Source: a virus
Reading direction: 5' to 3' (one strand)
IMG/VR virus record: IMGVR_UViG_3300036841_000024
Coordinates: 1 to 25,717 of that record
DNA: 25,717 bases
The notes below the pieces were generated by a model that searched no databases, was not told where the DNA came from, and saw only the letters and a program-made list of their open reading frames with translations. Made by a program: the position numbers and the translations under genes. Of the stretch, positions 4,323 to 25,717 are shown in pieces; within the stretch, counting starts at the first letter, position 1, and every line of letters begins with the position of its first letter.

Positions 4323-7102
4323 CAGGGCAAATCTCCGTAGAAGACGCATGCATAGCCCAACGGATCGGTAAATACGCTGTTTTCAATGTGGCGGATGGCG
4401 CACGAGCCGGTCGTGGGAGAGCTGTAGTCGGTGTCGTTGCTCGTGATCACCGCGGACGGCGCGGAAACGGCAGCTATGGCATAGTTGGCCGATGAAAAGC
4501 TCGTGCTGAAATTGATAGTGATGATGCCGACGCCGGTGTCGCTGACGCTGGAAACATTCCAATTCGCCGCCAGCGTTGGCGTGCCGCCGCTGACCGTGAC
4601 GAATGCCCATGCCTTGGCAGCGGCCGGATTGAATTTCTGCCGCAACGGCGTGACGAAAACAGATGTCGAGGTGGCGGCTTCCTGATCGGCCTGTGTGGCA
4701 ACAGCACTCGGACCCGTTGGTCCAGTTGGTCCGGTCGCCCCGGTGGCGCCGGCGGCGCCGGCAGCACCTGTACCGCCTGTGCCACCAGTCGTGCCAGTCG
4801 GACCGGTCGGACCAGTGGGGCCGGTCGCGCCAACATTGCCGACATCGCTTTCAATGATGTAGACGGCGAGATTGTTGGTGAGCGTTCCACCGGAGCCGAT
4901 CGAGCTGATTGGGACCGTGTCCCAGGTGCCGTTATCGGTTCTCGCGCCGGTGACATAGAATTCCCAATAGTTGGCCGGCGTGACCGGATCATAGATGCGA
5001 ACCCTCGCCTTGTTCGGCGATGTGCTCGTACCCCACGCTGCGATCACCGCAGCGAGCGCTTGGCTTGTCGCGCTCGTCTCGGAAATGTAGAGCGATGTGG
5101 CCGAGGCAAGCGTCGCGTTATTGCACTTGACGTTGCCCGAACCCGGATCGCTGTTCGTGGTCGCCGTCAGCCAATTGTACGAATAGTCGGCCGATCTCCC
5201 GGTCGCGCCGGTCGCTCCGGTCACGCCGCTTGGTCCGGTCACCCCCGTCGTGCCTGCGCCAGTCGGCCCGGTTGGCCCGGTCGGACCAGTTGCGCCGACA
5301 CCTCCCGCAGCTCCAGTTCCGCCGGTTGGTCCCGTCGGCCCCGTCGGACCAGTCGCGCCGGCGGGGCCTTGTGCCCCTGATGCGCCGCTTGGTCCGGTCG
5401 TGCCGGTCGGCCCAGATATGCCCGCACGGACGATTCCCAAAAGGGTCGGCTGGCCGCCATTGAGCGCATTTCCGGCCGACAGAAAGGTGACCGGCAGCTC
5501 GATGTAGCCGGTTTTGAAAACCGGATCGCCGCTCAAGTCATAGCGCGCATAAGCGGTCGCATCGTTCTTGTCTTGCACAACGGCGCGATCGCCCGCGTGA
5601 AATAGCGTGAAGTAATTCGAGACATCGATTCCGGTGCTGGTGAGCTTATCGATCCAAATCTTGGTCGCTGCCGATGCGCTCGCATCGTCGAACCTGATCT
5701 GATTGGAGCCCGGCGGCTCGGTCGTGGCGGCCGAAAAAGAGTATTCGAACAAGCTGGTCGAACCGCCCGCCGGCCCCGTCGAACCAGTCGGTCCGGGTGG
5801 TCCGGTAGTGCCAGTGACACCGATACCGGTTGGCCCGGTCGCGCCCACGGCGCCCTGTGGGCCGGTCGGCCCGGTCGGACCGGTGGCGCCCGTAACGCCG
5901 GCACCGGTGGGGCCGGTCGCTCCTACCGCGCCGGCCGGTCCTGACGGTCCCGTGGGTCCAGTTGGTCCCGTGGCACCCGTGACGCCGGCGCCAGTTGGAC
6001 CCGTCGCGCCTGTCGCGCCCGCGGAGCCCCCGGAGCCTTGTGGGCCTGTCGGCCCCGTGGCTCCAGTTACACCAGCGAAACCGATTCCGCCGCTCGGGCC
6101 TGCTGGTCCTGTCGGCCCCGTGGGTCCGGTGGCGCCCATCACTCCCGTTACGCCGGTCGGTCCGCTCGGTCCGACCGGACCAGTTGCGCCGGTCGCTCCC
6201 GCATCGCCCTTGTCGCCGGTGTCGGTTTCGGCAACCACGACGGCGAGGTTGTTGGTGAGCGTGCCGCCGCTGGCGATGTGAGTGATGGGAATCGTGTCCC
6301 AGGTGCCGTTATCGACGATGGCACCGGTGACGTAGAATTCCCAATAGGTCGAAGGCGCGGCCGGATTGACGATCTTGACGCGCGCGCGCTTGGCCGACGT
6401 CGGATCATCCCACGTCGTGATCAGCGGACCGAGCGGGACCGAGCCGCCCGCGGTCTCGGAGATGTAGAGCTGCGTCGCGGACGCCAGGACGACATTGTTG
6501 CACTTGACGTTGCCAACACCCGGATCGGCAGCAGTCGTCGCGGTGAGCCAATTATAGTTATAGCCGTTCGAAACGCCGGCCGGCCCGGTGGCGCCGCTCG
6601 GGCCAGTCGGGCCTTGAACGCCGTTCGCACCTGTTGCCCCCGTCATGCCGGTGGCACCGGCGAGACCTCCCGGACCCATCGGACCAGTTGGGCCGGTCGG
6701 TCCGGTGGGGCCGATCGGGCCGCCCGCCGGCCCGGTGGCACCGGTTGCGCCAGCGACACCGTCGTGGCCCGGTTGACCCGCGACGTTGATCTGCCAGTCC
6801 GAGAACGTGCCGCTGCCCGATTTCCAATCGAGCGCGAGGACGAGGTTGCGGTCGGCGTCGTAGGACTGGACGACGCCTTCCATCCATTGGTTGCTGCCGC
6901 CCTTGACGCTCGCGCGCAACCGCGTGCCGGGGGCAAATTCCAGCGCGTATTCGTTGATGACGAAGGTCGCCGTGCCCAAATCGGCGAGCGTCGCCGTCGA
7001 TTGGCTGGTGCCGGCGAGCACCGGCCCGCGCGGAGCGTACGGCGCGGCGACGGCGATGGCGGTCGGCGCGAGCTGCGAGGGGTCCAACGATTTCTTGACC
7101 AT
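4322..7102 (-). CDS. Large collagen-like tail fibre protein, 926 aa
   Basis: Probable trimeric receptor-binding fibre. The start is taken as ATG 7102 ([10 protein letters not shown]), coupled as TGATG to the previous stop. Its N-terminus resembles that of the smaller collagen-like fibre ([11 protein letters not shown] against [11 protein letters not shown]), which suggests a shared attachment point. A small domain follows ([14 protein letters not shown] ... [14 protein letters not shown]), then four blocks of Gly-X-Y triplets dominated by GPT, GAT and GPS. Three globular domains separate them: two copies of a YNWLTATT... NGTWDT domain and a shorter relative ([18 protein letters not shown]). 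The C-terminal 120 residues ([11 protein letters not shown] ... [20 protein letters not shown]) match a type of fibre tip domain I know from other phages. There is no signal peptide. Receptor unknown. Confidence 0.88.
4690..6785 (-). repeat. Collagen-like Gly-X-Y triplet arrays in the large fibre (four blocks)
   Basis: Four blocks of GGN-CCN-ACN-like nine-base units lie within this span, at roughly 6570-6785, 5775-6210, 5190-5415 and 4690-4835, separated by globular domains. On the plus strand they read as GPVGPVAP repeats, which produces long false frames. Thr is very frequent at the Y position. Such arrays form triple helices in bacterial and phage collagen-like proteins; the units are degenerate at wobble positions, which limits slippage. 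Confidence 0.9.
4846..5188 (-). repeat. Duplicated fibre domain, copy 2 (copy 1 at about 6222-6566)
   Basis: About 114 codons encoding a domain that starts [20 protein letters not shown] and ends [18 protein letters not shown]. It matches the segment at about 6222-6566 ([20 protein letters not shown] ... [18 protein letters not shown]). DNA identity is high locally: both copies contain tcccaggtgccgttatcg. This indicates internal duplication of a fibre segment. Confidence 0.85.
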
Positions 7103-8433
7103 CACGCGCCCCGCGAATCGCGCCAGCCCCAAACCGCGACGTCCAGGGCCGCGGCGGCCGAAAAGGCGCTGACGCGTGTGCGAATCTGCTGCGAGGTGTT
7201 GGTCCTCACAGAGAGCGGAGTCGAGCTGTACACGGTGTCGAGGCTGGAAATGATGGCGTTGGAATCGCCCAAACCCGTCGGCAACACGTCGGTCATGAAA
7301 AGCGGCGTGATGCGCGCGAAAACGGTGAAGTTGCTGTTGGCGCTATCGTTCAGCAGTCCGATGCTGACCAAGGCATCGACCACGACGCCCAGCGGCACGC
7401 TCGGGAGCGCTCGCGTGACCGCGGCGGTGGTGCCGACGTTGGTCACGCTCACGTCGAGCACCTGCGTCGCCCAACGGAATTCACTGCCCGACTGATTGAA
7501 CGCCAGGATGGCCGATGAGCCGTCGGTCTTGATCGAGCCGATGCGCCGTTCTTTGGTGTAGCTCGTCGGCATCGTCGGCGCGGACGGCGACGTCGAGAAC
7601 AGAACATCGACCGCGTTCGTGTCGGTGCGCTGAATGAGAAAGACGTGATACCACGTGTTCGCCGTGATCGTGCCGCTGTCAAGCCCGCCGTTGTTGTTGC
7701 CCGATACGAACGCGCTCACGGTTTTGCTGATCGCTGACGACAGGGTCATCAGCGTCGTGTTGTCATCCGACATCGCGCCGCCGACGGCGATGTCGATCTT
7801 GGTGTTGGGCGATCCCGAATTGTTGGCGAGCGTGAGTCCGGTCAGGAATGTCGGCGCTATCGGCCCGGTCGGGCCGGTTATACCCGTGGCGCCACTCGGG
7901 CCGGTTGGCCCGGTTGAGCCGATCGTGACCGGGCCGGTGACACCGGTGGCGCCGGCGGGGCCGGTGGGGCCGGTCGCTCCGGCCGGGCCGCTCGCGCCCG
8001 TTGCGCCAGTCGGCCCGCCGCTGGGGCCGGTCGGCCCGGTGGCCCCGGTTGGGCCGGTCGGCCCTGCAATGCCCGGCGGGCCGCTCACGCCGATGGGGCC
8101 GGTTGCGCCAGTGACGCCGCTCGGCCCCGTAGGGCCGCCAGCAGGGCCGGTTGCTCCGGTCACGCCTACCGTGCCAGGGGTGCCCGACGGCCCGGCTGGC
8201 CCGGTTGCACCTTGCGGGCCGGTGACACCGGTGGCGCCGGTCGGGCCGGTGGGTCCGCCGGCCGGACCCGTGGCGCCCGTCAGGCCAGTGGTGCCGGTTG
8301 CGCCGGTCAGCCCTTGCGGCCCCGTGGCGCCGACCGGGCCATAGGGCGCCGCGGTTGCGACCGACGATGGGATCAGATCGCCGTCAACAGTCTCGGCCGC
8401 TTGCCGCTTGAGCGTGACCGATCGGATCGTCAT
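7102..8433 (-). CDS. Collagen-like tail fibre protein, 443 aa
   Basis: Second collagen-like fibre. The start at 8433 overlaps the upstream 128-aa gene as ATGA. Residues 1-30 form a short anchor ([16 protein letters not shown] ... ATAAPYG). Residues about 30-190 are Gly-X-Y triplets, mostly GPT, GAT and GPS. The C-terminal 250 residues begin [20 protein letters not shown] and include [20 protein letters not shown] and [19 protein letters not shown]. This is a C-terminal domain I recognise from many alphaproteobacterial phage and prophage fibres. It probably trimerises and presents a receptor-binding or structural head. Its shared N-terminal pattern with the larger fibre downstream suggests both attach to the same baseplate partner, perhaps the 128-aa protein. 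Confidence 0.86.
7863..8345 (-). repeat. Collagen-like Gly-X-Y triplet array in the smaller fibre
   Basis: About 160 codons of almost unbroken Gly-X-Y, with Pro common at X and Thr, Ala or Ser at Y ([10 protein letters not shown] type). The DNA is a run of gg-cc-rich nine-base units with varied third bases. On the plus strand it creates a GPVGPV shadow frame. Confidence 0.92.
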
Positions 8434-23320: not shown

Positions 23321-23686
23321 TTAAGAGCTGATCTCCTCGCAACTCGTGCCCTCGAACCGCACGCGCACCTGGCCTTCACGGGTGTTGTTCTCGAGGGCCG
23401 ATTTGCATGCCGCCTGTTTGAGCACGTAGGTTTTGCCGTTGATGAGCTCGGCGGTCACGGTGACGTCGACCATCGCGTCAAGGTCCTCGAGCAGCACCTC
23501 GGGCGTCGTAGTGACGTCTCCTTCGATCCACGGCACCCGCGGCAGCTCTTGATAACCGTGCACGTAGTCTTGGCCTGCGAGCATCGTGCGCTCGATCGGC
23601 GACGACGACACGGTGAAGTTGCCGCGGAGTGGGTATTGATCGCCATCGACCTTGAAGAAGGCCGTGCCTGCGACTGCTTGCGCCAT
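23321..23686 (-). CDS. Tail tube protein, Mu gpM-like, 121 aa
   Basis: Forms the inner tube through which DNA passes. It matches the Mu gpM-type tail tube family: AGTAFFKVDGDQYPLRGNFT, then ERTMLAGQDYVHGYQELPRV, then PWIEGDVTTTPEVLLEDLDA and AELINGKTYVLKQAACKS. Length is typical (Mu gpM is about 118 aa). Start is ATG 23686 with GGAGAT upstream. It is preceded by a 111-base gap, one of only two noticeable gaps in the window, which holds a terminator-like hairpin and a leader hairpin also found before the sheath gene. High expression is expected because the tube is built from many copies. Confidence 0.94.
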   Translation of the reverse strand: MAQAVAGTAFFKVDGDQYPLRGNFTVSSSPIERTMLAGQDYVHGYQELPRVPWIEGDVTTTPEVLLEDLDAMVDVTVTAELINGKTYVLKQAACKSALENNTREGQVRVRFEGTSCEEISS

Positions 23687-23693
23687 AGTGGGA

Positions 23694-23731
23694 TCTCCAT
23701 CTAGCGGGAGTGACGCGTCTCACGACGGATC
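23694..23731 (-). promoter_or_regulatory. Hairpin leader and ribosome site of the tube gene (copy 2)
   Basis: At 23731-23712 the minus strand reads GATCCGTCGTGAGACGCGTC. It can fold as an eight-position stem with one C-C mismatch and one G-U pair, closed by a GUGA loop of the GNRA type. Ten bases later comes GATGGAGA (23701-23694), seven bases before the ATG. The same arrangement lies before the sheath gene. The two hairpins differ at two bases only, and those two bases pair with each other. Probably acts in the mRNA; role unknown. Confidence 0.7.
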
Positions 23732-23763
23732 GAGCGGTCCTGATCCCGCGCGGGCCGTTTGCG

Positions 23764-23788
23764 CGGAAGAAAAGGCGCGGGCGCCTTT
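23764..23788 (-). terminator. Terminator-like hairpin after the sheath gene
   Basis: On the minus strand, AAAGGCG and CGCCTTT (seven pairs) enclose a CCCG loop, and the stem runs into TTTTCTT. It starts nine bases after the sheath stop codon. The shape fits a rho-independent terminator, perhaps partial, since the tail genes beyond must still be transcribed. It could also serve as a 3' end stabiliser for sheath mRNA. Confidence 0.6.
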
Positions 23789-23797
23789 CGCTTCGAC

Positions 23798-25348
23798 TTA
23801 CCGGAGAATCTCGGCGTCCTGGCCGCGGTTGGATTGGAGTCTGAACTGCACCAGCACGGCGTAGATGCGCAGCTGGTTCACGAGATCGGGCGGGTACAGA
23901 ACGTTGAGCCGATTCGGGTTATTAGGGTCACGCTCGACGATGAGGTTCGCCTTGTAGCTGGCGACGTCCTCGACCAGGCCGTTGAATTCGTCGATGCGAT
24001 ATTCGGCGACGAGCTCGGCCTTGACGATCTTGGGCGTGACAATTTTCTGCCCGACGCCGAAGCGGGTGCCGTCGTTGGCGAGTTTATGGCGCGGGAATTT
24101 CGAGGTGATCGCCTGGCGCTGATTGCGGATCAGCCGCGCCAGCGTTGCCATGGTGGTCACCAGCTCATAGGCATCGTCGCTCTGGCCATAGAGGTTGAGC
24201 TGGTAGGTGGTCGTGTCCCGCATGATCATCGGCTGACCATCGGAGCCGCGTTTCTGCGTCGCGATACCCACGCCGGAAAGGCTGTTGACCTCCGGCAGGA
24301 TGAACGTGTCCTCCGGCCTGGCCGGCAGGATCTTGTTGAGCGACAAGGTCTGCAGCGGGCGCGCCGGATCGTTGGTCAGCGCGCGTGCGGACTTGCTGGC
24401 ATAGGCCGCCGCCCACTCGTAGGTCGGCGATGGCGCCAGCGGCTCGACGCCCATGATCGAGGTCGGGCCGAAATTGCGCGTCTCGCCGAACACGATGAGG
24501 TCGGAATAGTCATCGCGCTTGGCAGCGAACAGATGACCATAGAGCTGGCGCATCCAGCCCCAGCGTCCGGTGTCGTCGAACCCCCATTCCTGCTCGAAGT
24601 CGAACAGCGTATTCGAATCGGTGTTGGCAAGCGCGACATATTCATATTCGTGCTCGCCGAGGTTCGCGATCGCGTTGGTGTAATCGGGCACGCCGGCGCC
24701 GCCGGAGAGGCTTGCGGGCATCGTCACCGCCATGCCGGGCGGGAGCGCCTGGCCGCCGACTTTGCCGTAGTAGTTCAAAGTCAGCGAGATGTCGTTGCCG
24801 TTCACGCCCTTGGTCTTGCAGGTCAACGTGACCGTGTCGGTTGCGGCCGCCGCGGTTACCGGCAAGCTCGGAATGTCGTTGATCGCCGCCGCCAGCGCGG
24901 TGGCGATGGTGTCCGGCGTGTCGGTGGTCCCGCAGACGATGCCGACGTGATGCCCGGCGATGTAGAGATGCAGCATCCCGGCCTCGGTCGGGACCGCGTC
25001 GATCGAGATGTCGCCGGTTGCCGCAATCGAGCCCGCCAGCGGCGCGACCGGCAGCGCCCAAATCTCCTGCGCGAAGTTGTTCGCGAAGCTCGCCGCGAAC
25101 ATGCAAGCGAGCTCGGATCCTTCGCCATATTGGTGATCCGCCTCGGCCTGCGTCCCGATCGGCCGCGGCACGTCGGGCACGGCGATGCCCGCGGTGACGC
25201 CGGTGGTCGCGTCGCTTTCGGTGATCATCGAGCCGACGAGGAGGATCGGCTGCCGCACGATCGGCAAGCCCGCCATCGACGGATCGATCTCGGCCCAGAA
25301 TAGCGGCATCCGCCAATTGGCGGGAATCGAGTCAAAGCTGATGGGCAT
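23798..25348 (-). CDS. Tail sheath protein, Mu gpL-like, 516 aa
   Basis: Contractile outer sheath of the tail. It is recognised by the gpL-type start (ISFDSIPANWRMPLFWAEID, then RQPILLVGSMI), GEGSELACMFAASFANNFAQEIWAL (two segments), the middle EYEYVALANTDSNTLFDFEQEW, and the C-terminal RDTTTYQLNLYGQSDDAYEL ... LARLIRNQRQAITSKFPRHK, ending with FNGLVEDVASYKANLIVERD. Length agrees with Mu gpL (about 495 aa). Start is ATG 25348 with GGAGA upstream. A leader hairpin precedes it and a terminator-like hairpin follows it. It lies between the DUF2635 gene and the tube gene, as in Mu. The 514-aa plus-strand frame across it is antisense shadow. Confidence 0.96.
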   Translation of the reverse strand: MPISFDSIPANWRMPLFWAEIDPSMAGLPIVRQPILLVGSMITESDATTGVTAGIAVPDVPRPIGTQAEADHQYGEGSELACMFAASFANNFAQEIWALPVAPLAGSIAATGDISIDAVPTEAGMLHLYIAGHHVGIVCGTTDTPDTIATALAAAINDIPSLPVTAAAATDTVTLTCKTKGVNGNDISLTLNYYGKVGGQALPPGMAVTMPASLSGGAGVPDYTNAIANLGEHEYEYVALANTDSNTLFDFEQEWGFDDTGRWGWMRQLYGHLFAAKRDDYSDLIVFGETRNFGPTSIMGVEPLAPSPTYEWAAAYASKSARALTNDPARPLQTLSLNKILPARPEDTFILPEVNSLSGVGIATQKRGSDGQPMIMRDTTTYQLNLYGQSDDAYELVTTMATLARLIRNQRQAITSKFPRHKLANDGTRFGVGQKIVTPKIVKAELVAEYRIDEFNGLVEDVASYKANLIVERDPNNPNRLNVLYPPDLVNQLRIYAVLVQFRLQSNRGQDAEILR

Positions 25349-25354
25349 GGACGT

Positions 25355-25390
25355 TCTCCATCGGAGGAAAGGCGCGTCTCACGACGGACC
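25355..25390 (-). promoter_or_regulatory. Hairpin leader and ribosome site of the sheath gene (copy 1)
   Basis: At 25390-25371 the minus strand reads GGTCCGTCGTGAGACGCGCC, an eight-position stem with a GUGA loop. Eight bases later comes GATGGAGA (25362-25355), six bases before the ATG. It is the partner of the tube-gene leader: 18 of 20 hairpin bases are equal, and the two changes keep a base pair. I see no further copy in the window. Confidence 0.7.
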
Positions 25391-25393
25391 GAG

Positions 25394-25413
25394 AAAAAGA
25401 GGCGAGGCGCGCC
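25394..25413 (-). terminator. Weak terminator-like element after the DUF2635 gene
   Basis: On the minus strand GGCG-CGCCT-CGCC is followed by TCTTTTTCTC, only a few bases after the TAA of the upstream gene. The stem has just four G-C pairs, so termination would be weak. I list it because the tube gene has a better element at the corresponding place. Confidence 0.35.
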
Positions 25414-25416
25414 GCT

Positions 25417-25717
25417 TTAGGTTTGCGGATCGCGCGCGCGCCGGCGTTGGTGCGTTGTGCGCTCGCCTTCGTCCTCGCGCTTGTGCGCCTGCGGCGCGCG
25501 GATGGCTTCCGCGACCGCGTCATCCGCAAGCTTGACCGTACCTTCCCTCAGCCGCCGCCAGGTGAAGGAATCGAGCGGCCACTCGACCGAGTCGCCGATG
25601 TTGGGAAGAAATTTCTGGCGCGTGACGCCGTGTTGGAGGGCCCGGCGATATTTCTCTTCCGTGGCGACCACGCGCACATGCGTCGGCCGCGAAAGATCGT
25701 CCGGCTTGTGCCGCTTC
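25417..25717 (-). CDS. DUF2635-like small tail protein, Mu gp38-like (5' end cut by window edge)
   Basis: The reading frame is open from the window edge; a GTG at 25677 exists, but the upstream codons (KRHKPDDLSRPTHV) look like protein, so the true start is probably outside. The core IGDSVEWPLDSFTWRRLREGTVKL fits the DUF2635 pattern (small beta domain with WRRRL.DG.V) known for the gene just before the sheath in Mu-like phages. The C-terminus is charged and Arg-rich (KREDEGERTTHQRRRARD). Role in tail assembly not established. Relative to the sheath, it has the expected position and strand. Confidence 0.72.
   Translation of the reverse strand, partial: KRHKPDDLSRPTHVRVVATEEKYRRALQHGVTRQKFLPNIGDSVEWPLDSFTWRRLREGTVKLADDAVAEAIRAPQAHKREDEGERTTHQRRRARDPQT

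Follow-up and report, generated by a model that had tools for sequence, protein, structure and literature searches.

Two leader hairpins in the tail gene cluster of an uncultured virus

The window, i.e., the whole stretch of DNA that was analyzed, is a record of 25,717 bases from an uncultured virus, in which the tail genes are on the minus strand, as are all the window features described below. Two of these genes are the putative controlled cistrons of the leader: a tail sheath gene of 516 aa (23798..25348), assigned through homologous sheath phrog_165, and a tail tube gene of 121 aa (23321..23686), the product of which matched the phrog_185 tail tube protein with an E-value of 6.5e-23. Each gene is preceded by a 20-base hairpin (hairpin C) that was identified from its sequence, its predicted fold and covariation in relatives. 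In the sheath leader (25371..25390; GGTCCGTCGTGAGACGCGCC), the outer arms GGT and GCC and the inner arms CGTC and GACG, which are separated by an internal C.C mismatch, enclose a GTGA loop of the GNRA class. In the tube leader (23712..23731; GATCCGTCGTGAGACGCGTC), the outer arms are GAT and GTC, and the mismatch, the inner arms and the loop are the same. Both hairpins have three outer pairs, the C.C mismatch and four inner pairs and, when folded alone, form the structure (((.((((....)))).))) at -8.3 kcal/mol (sheath) and -6.3 kcal/mol (tube). The two copies are equal at 18 of 20 positions, and the two differences, at positions 2 and 19, face each other as G-C in the sheath copy and A-T in the tube copy, exactly as an earlier note on this DNA had described them.

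Hairpin C is followed by an NNTCC box, which is TTTCC in the sheath leader (25366..25370) and ACTCC in the tube leader (23707..23711) and the TCC of which is nearly invariant in alignments A1 and A2. It is followed in turn by a GATGGAG Shine-Dalgarno sequence, 7 nt 5' of the ATG of the sheath gene (25356..25362) and 8 nt 5' of that of the tube gene (23695..23701), a spacing that is fixed in relatives. The sequence GATGGAGA is found 8 and 10 bases after the two window hairpins; this arrangement and the GTGA (GUGA) loop of both copies had also been pointed out in the earlier note and were confirmed in the sequence.

Only two exact copies of the core CCGTCGTGAGACGCG occur in the window, with no further one at up to two mismatches. 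A search of the window with model R1 also gave only these two as confident matches (E-values of 7e-12 and 7e-11, the next best being 0.62; these Infernal E-values are rough, given the short calibration). In three Mu-like relatives (L017:3464-3539, L024:3483-3556, and L025:3484-3557), a third leader copy precedes a small gene with no known function, which lies just 5' of the sheath gene, and the start of the matching window gene may be at or beyond the window edge. The window is GC- and repeat-rich, with 314 near-identical 20-mer pairs that are mostly within repetitive genes. Since near-identical 20-mers are not rare in the window, a comparison of the two copies alone is weak, and the decisive test is therefore a comparison across phages. 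Long runs of 9-base units (ACCGGCCCG) at 4700-8310 on the minus strand are Gly-X-Y collagen-like and probably belong to tail fibre genes.

Further hairpins are found upstream. In the tube leader, a hairpin B of the Mu-like type (23735..23757) has the arms CGGCCC and GGACCG around GGGATCA, with one C.A mismatch in the window copy, and the homologous stems covary in relatives; the sheath leader is without hairpin B. Hairpin A (23771..23788), located 3' of the sheath stop codon, is a 7-bp GC-rich hairpin with the arms AAAGGCG and CGCCTTT around CCCG and a weak T tail. Its stem differs in relatives, yet is complementary, and we do not call it a terminator. In the sheath leader, a weak hairpin is found before TTTTT. 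The earlier note had regarded both genes as preceded by a terminator-like element. The hairpins are indeed present, but neither passed our scan for intrinsic terminators (stem of at least 5 pairs plus a T run), which found none in 23600-25560, where 1.5 were expected by chance, and the association of the leader with a terminator is inconsistent. A scan of the same interval for -35/-10 hexamers, which covers sigma-70-type promoters only, found none.

Covariation of the hairpins across phages

We collected relatives of the sheath and tube genes from IMG/VR and from bacterial genomes. The close relatives have the hairpin before the sheath and tube genes, with stems that differ; it was not found before these genes in the distant relatives or in two Bradyrhizobium prophages. 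The sheath gene of one relative contains a group I intron (L110:1926-2143; Rfam RF00028, 76 bits), and L067 has a similar insertion in the same stretch. The sheath proteins of five other relatives (L011, L016, L022, L024, and L064) are 537-608 aa long, compared to 516 aa in the window, which looks like the result of an in-frame inserted domain and not of an intron.

Pairing was counted in three pattern scans, the patterns of which never imposed the counted pairs. In scan 1 of IMG/VR, the flanks and the GTGA loop were fixed and two inner pairs were left free. At least 120 stretches matched, and the inner pairs were complementary in 92 of the 93 sites among the matches listed, the sole exception being a chance match. 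When the loop was also left free (scan 2), 101 of 107 distinct sites had complementary inner pairs, and the loops of 96 of the 107 were of the GNRA class (GTGA in 78, GCGA in 13, GAGA in 4 and GCAA in 1). Scan 3, a pair of scans in which both stems were free, yielded 88 distinct sites. All 176 of their inner pairs were complementary (88/88 sites; mean 127.5 and maximum 141 in shuffles), as were 248 of 264 outer pairs (mean 188 and maximum 204), where the shuffles are guides and not probabilities, given that related sequences were counted more than once. The outer arms in scan 3 include GGC/GCC, GCC/GGC, GCG/CGC, CGC/GCG and GCA/TGC, and 77 of the 88 sites have C.C as the internal mismatch. It should be noted that the rows of alignments A1 and A2 had been selected by pairing and by GNRA loop. 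The pair counts in these alignments were set aside as main evidence, and the filtered alignment A2 was used only to build search model R1.

The stems of hairpin C thus vary yet stay complementary, also among copies within one phage. Taken together, the constraint to GNRA, the covariation of the stems and the kept mismatch indicate that the selected object is RNA. As judged from this comparison of sequences, hairpin C is a real RNA structure under selection in more than 100 phage leaders, which bears out the proposal, first made from the two window copies, that their G-C/A-T difference is a compensatory change in such a structure. In about half of the copies, the loop has a fifth base, which is a pyrimidine in 82 of 82 and in 47 of 50 sites of two site sets and could pair with the first loop G, closing an NRA triloop. 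Several leaders contain tandem C hairpins (L448:180-235, L459, L468, and G006:16989-17060). The upstream tandem copy in L448 differs at nearly every stem position, with the C.C mismatch kept.

Across the family, hairpin B is often found just 5' of hairpin C, with a stem of 4-7 bp and a loop of the CUUGGGCAA type. For hairpin B of the siphovirus type, the sites of which were picked by loop only, 219 of 228 stem cells were paired among many different stems, compared to a mean of 147 and a maximum of 165 in shuffled data. The Mu-like relatives have a longer hairpin B around GCGGGA(N)CA. A further GC-rich or terminator-like hairpin is found 5' of hairpin B in some leaders, and some relatives, unlike the window leaders, have an intrinsic terminator upstream. 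In a capsid leader of an alphaproteobacterial genome (L338:1440-1500), a strong hairpin ending in CTTTT lies directly 5' of hairpin C.

Position, target genes and distribution of the leader

The strand and position of the leader relative to the downstream gene are fixed. Hairpin C ends about 20-25 nt 5' of the start codon, the distance from the TCC box to the GGA is 7-9 nt in 137 of 151 leaders, and the Shine-Dalgarno sequence (GGAN) ends 5-11 nt before the start codon in 144 of 147. The upstream stop codon is often no more than 4-60 nt away. The downstream proteins form 26 clusters, and for at least 135 of 147 leaders the next gene is a virion or assembly gene as assigned by cluster, with one representative per cluster tested in PHROG searches. 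Their targets include major head proteins of at least five PHROG families (phrog_617/10, 283, 264, 1005, and 29), in addition to head decoration, scaffold, sheath and tube proteins, several major tail proteins, a tail assembly chaperone and a tail fibre. Searches of whole records revealed 1-4 copies per phage, all of them on one strand. The earlier note had linked the leader to abundantly made virion proteins and had placed it before sheath and tube genes only. The link is borne out and also covers capsid, scaffold and major tail genes; the restriction stands for the window fragment, in which R1 found no third copy, but not for the family, in which these other genes are preceded by the leader too.

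On this comparative evidence, the motif is a structured RNA leader that acts in cis and lies between the cistrons of late operons, directly 5' of genes for abundant virion proteins. As read from the aligned sequences, it consists of hairpin C (an 8-bp frame with the C.C mismatch, capped by a GNRA or GNRA+Y loop), an NNUCC(C) box, a GAUGGAG Shine-Dalgarno sequence and, often, hairpin B.

The carriers are unrelated phages, some of them in Alphaproteobacteria. An R1 search of 385 alphaproteobacterial genomes, in which 17 candidates per genome were scored, found copies in at least two genomes, before capsid-like and tail-tube-like genes. In a plasmid of Sinorhizobium medicae, both hairpins (B and C) are present, with 90% identity, 5' of an open reading frame of 775 aa. 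No copy was found in two Bradyrhizobium genomes and no match in E. coli genomes, and two consensus searches for the motif in cultured phages (50,697 phage records) gave no clear copy, the short partial matches having E-values of 2 or more and being, with one exception, inside annotated genes. A partial match in Nonomuraea (E-value of 0.4) was rejected, as was one exact copy in a 101-kb contig (L004); this contig is from an unrelated phage, and the copy falls within one of its intrinsic terminators and is thus due to chance. Most of the pattern matches in the 385 alphaproteobacterial genomes had non-complementary inner pairs and were rejected as chance matches or an unrelated repeat; thus, host genes seem to make no use of the motif. 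The repeat in question is in alphaproteobacterial genome G354 (L346, L348, L350-L352), where five copies of GCCCGACGCGATGACGCGCCTGTCC resemble hairpin C without its inner pairing and are probably unrelated to it.

Possible modes of action and relation to known systems

With structure, position and targets established by the comparison, the sign and the route of the effect are what we infer from them. The fixed Shine-Dalgarno geometry, the cistron specificity and the class of the targets suggest a role in translation initiation of high-copy proteins. We give a probability of about 0.55 to the reading that the leader raises or times the expression of single cistrons in the polycistronic late mRNA via translation initiation. 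Hairpin C would abut the bound 30S subunit, and the GNRA loop, the C.C mismatch and the loop of hairpin B would be surfaces read by a host component; alternatively, the structure alone might keep the Shine-Dalgarno region in a favorable state. No protein family outside the packaging and virion module was common to 22 carriers, and a Com zinc-ribbon protein was found above the cut-off in none of 23 records; some of these contigs and records are fragments, so that a shared factor could be missed. The lack of a shared phage family and of Com makes a host component or a self-sufficient structure likelier than a dedicated phage protein. More tentatively, the motif may be a portable two-hairpin late-gene leader, common to many unrelated alphaproteobacterial phages, that recruits one same host component (a ribosomal protein, an RNA chaperone or a nuclease) and thereby privileges the translation of virion cistrons. 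If so, phages would have a counterpart to viral internal expression elements, one that selection spreads or maintains whatever protein is encoded downstream. Mimicry of or pairing with rRNA was rejected: the complement of the B loop is absent from Bradyrhizobium 16S, and a 9-nt rRNA match (GTCGTGAGA), which is limited to one variant of the stem, was not counted as support.

The main other rival, which we consider rather unlikely, is an element for the stabilisation of processed mRNA: the transcript would be cut upstream, hairpins B and C would form the protected 5' end of the capsid or tail mRNA, and the upstream hairpin would guard the previous 3' end. Two stacked hairpins near a Shine-Dalgarno sequence are a usual form of 5' protection, and the target genes encode proteins of which many copies are required. 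Just 5' of hairpin C, there is often a GC-rich or terminator-like hairpin, and where it is strong and terminator-like, as in many leaders, it fits roles in processing or stability and counts against the translation reading. However, stabilisation would need neither a fixed loop class nor a fixed C.C mismatch or Shine-Dalgarno distance, and some copies lie 4 nt past the upstream stop codon without any hairpin B.

A less probable account is a protein-controlled translational switch, in which a phage or host RNA-binding protein on hairpins B and C would open or close a partly sequestered ribosome binding site for late timing or assembly feedback. The Shine-Dalgarno sequence of the leaders is predicted to be less accessible than those of 239 other starts on these contigs (unpaired: 0.27 in the leaders and 0.40 in the other starts; p 7e-8), which counts against a simple enhancer and keeps the switch model alive. 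Sequestration by the start codon region was rejected as a general feature, the mean pairing being only 0.11. The features of the leader that resemble recognition sites, i.e., the C.C mismatch, the B loop and the GNRA loop, are conserved, and the Com-mom system of phage Mu offers a precedent (PMC6483171). The absence of a common non-virion family and of a Com homologue at the thresholds given above argues against a switch, and the motif precedes unrelated proteins, for which one autoregulatory virion protein cannot account.

A DNA element, such as a late promoter or an operator of inverted repeats, is disfavored and very improbable, although the palindromic motif is found upstream of genes and recurs within one genome. 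Its loops vary within the GNRA class, its stems change but stay complementary even between copies of one phage, and its spacing to the start codon is fixed. Where the upstream stop codon is as near as 4 nt, a promoter would hardly fit into the gap, and these short gaps and the lack of a sigma-70-like site in the window leaders make a promoter unlikely. The many near-identical 20-mers of the window would speak for a chance resemblance of the two copies in a GC-rich genome, but this is refuted by the more than 100 leaders that agree in structure, spacing and gene class.

To our knowledge, little is understood, except in a few model phages, of how one late transcript yields hundreds of capsid and tube subunits but few copies of neighboring proteins. 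The motif marks high-copy virion cistrons in very different phages, with a precise structure, testable pairs and a consensus for reporters, and looks like a new, testable way for phages to set the amount of each particle part. In the annotation of uncultured alphaproteobacterial phages, it may also help to recognize the major capsid and tail tube genes, and work in rhizobia could profit from a strong expression leader.

We rejected homology to named RNA families, given that no Rfam 15 family matched the window or ten carrier loci at the gathering cut-off and that the best sub-threshold matches of the leader were due to chance. The families in a 2017 catalogue of 224 candidate RNAs should be in Rfam. 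Like the structured RNAs of Rfam, the leader is cis-acting with compensatory changes; unlike them, it has no family match. No report of the motif was found in the open-access literature, and by Rfam and this literature we file it as a new family of cis-acting phage leader RNA.

In Cluster K mycobacteriophages, the SAS/ESAS motifs are also repeated at several starts per phage, with inverted repeats 5' of the Shine-Dalgarno box. They are found only at non-structural genes, and their inverted repeats are without RNA covariation, for which the authors favored DNA binding (PMC3203893). The present motif differs by its virion genes and strong covariation, and has a GATGGAG box instead of the 13-bp GGGATAGGAGCCC box of the Cluster K non-structural genes (PMC3203893). 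The Com-mom system of Mu shares with the motif a hairpin just 5' of a phage start codon, for which translation control has been proposed, and a Mu-type context (PMC6483171). Com is a phage zinc-finger protein that acts on one modification gene (PMC6483171), whereas our sites are at virion genes, have another hairpin sequence and were accompanied by no Com at the cut-off. The T7 gene 10 leader (g10 RBS), which is 5' of the major capsid gene and strongly raises translation at a fixed distance to a GGAG-type Shine-Dalgarno sequence (PMC8748333), has the same kind of target gene and the same fixed Shine-Dalgarno spacing as the motif. The enhancer of T7 is an unstructured, A/U-rich box of 9 nt, which was not needed in Agrobacterium (PMC8748333), and no such box was found 5' of the Shine-Dalgarno sequence in our leaders, which are GC-rich and hairpin-forming. 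Unlike that enhancer, the present motif is a GC-rich, covarying GNRA hairpin that is found in unrelated phages and at several genes per phage.
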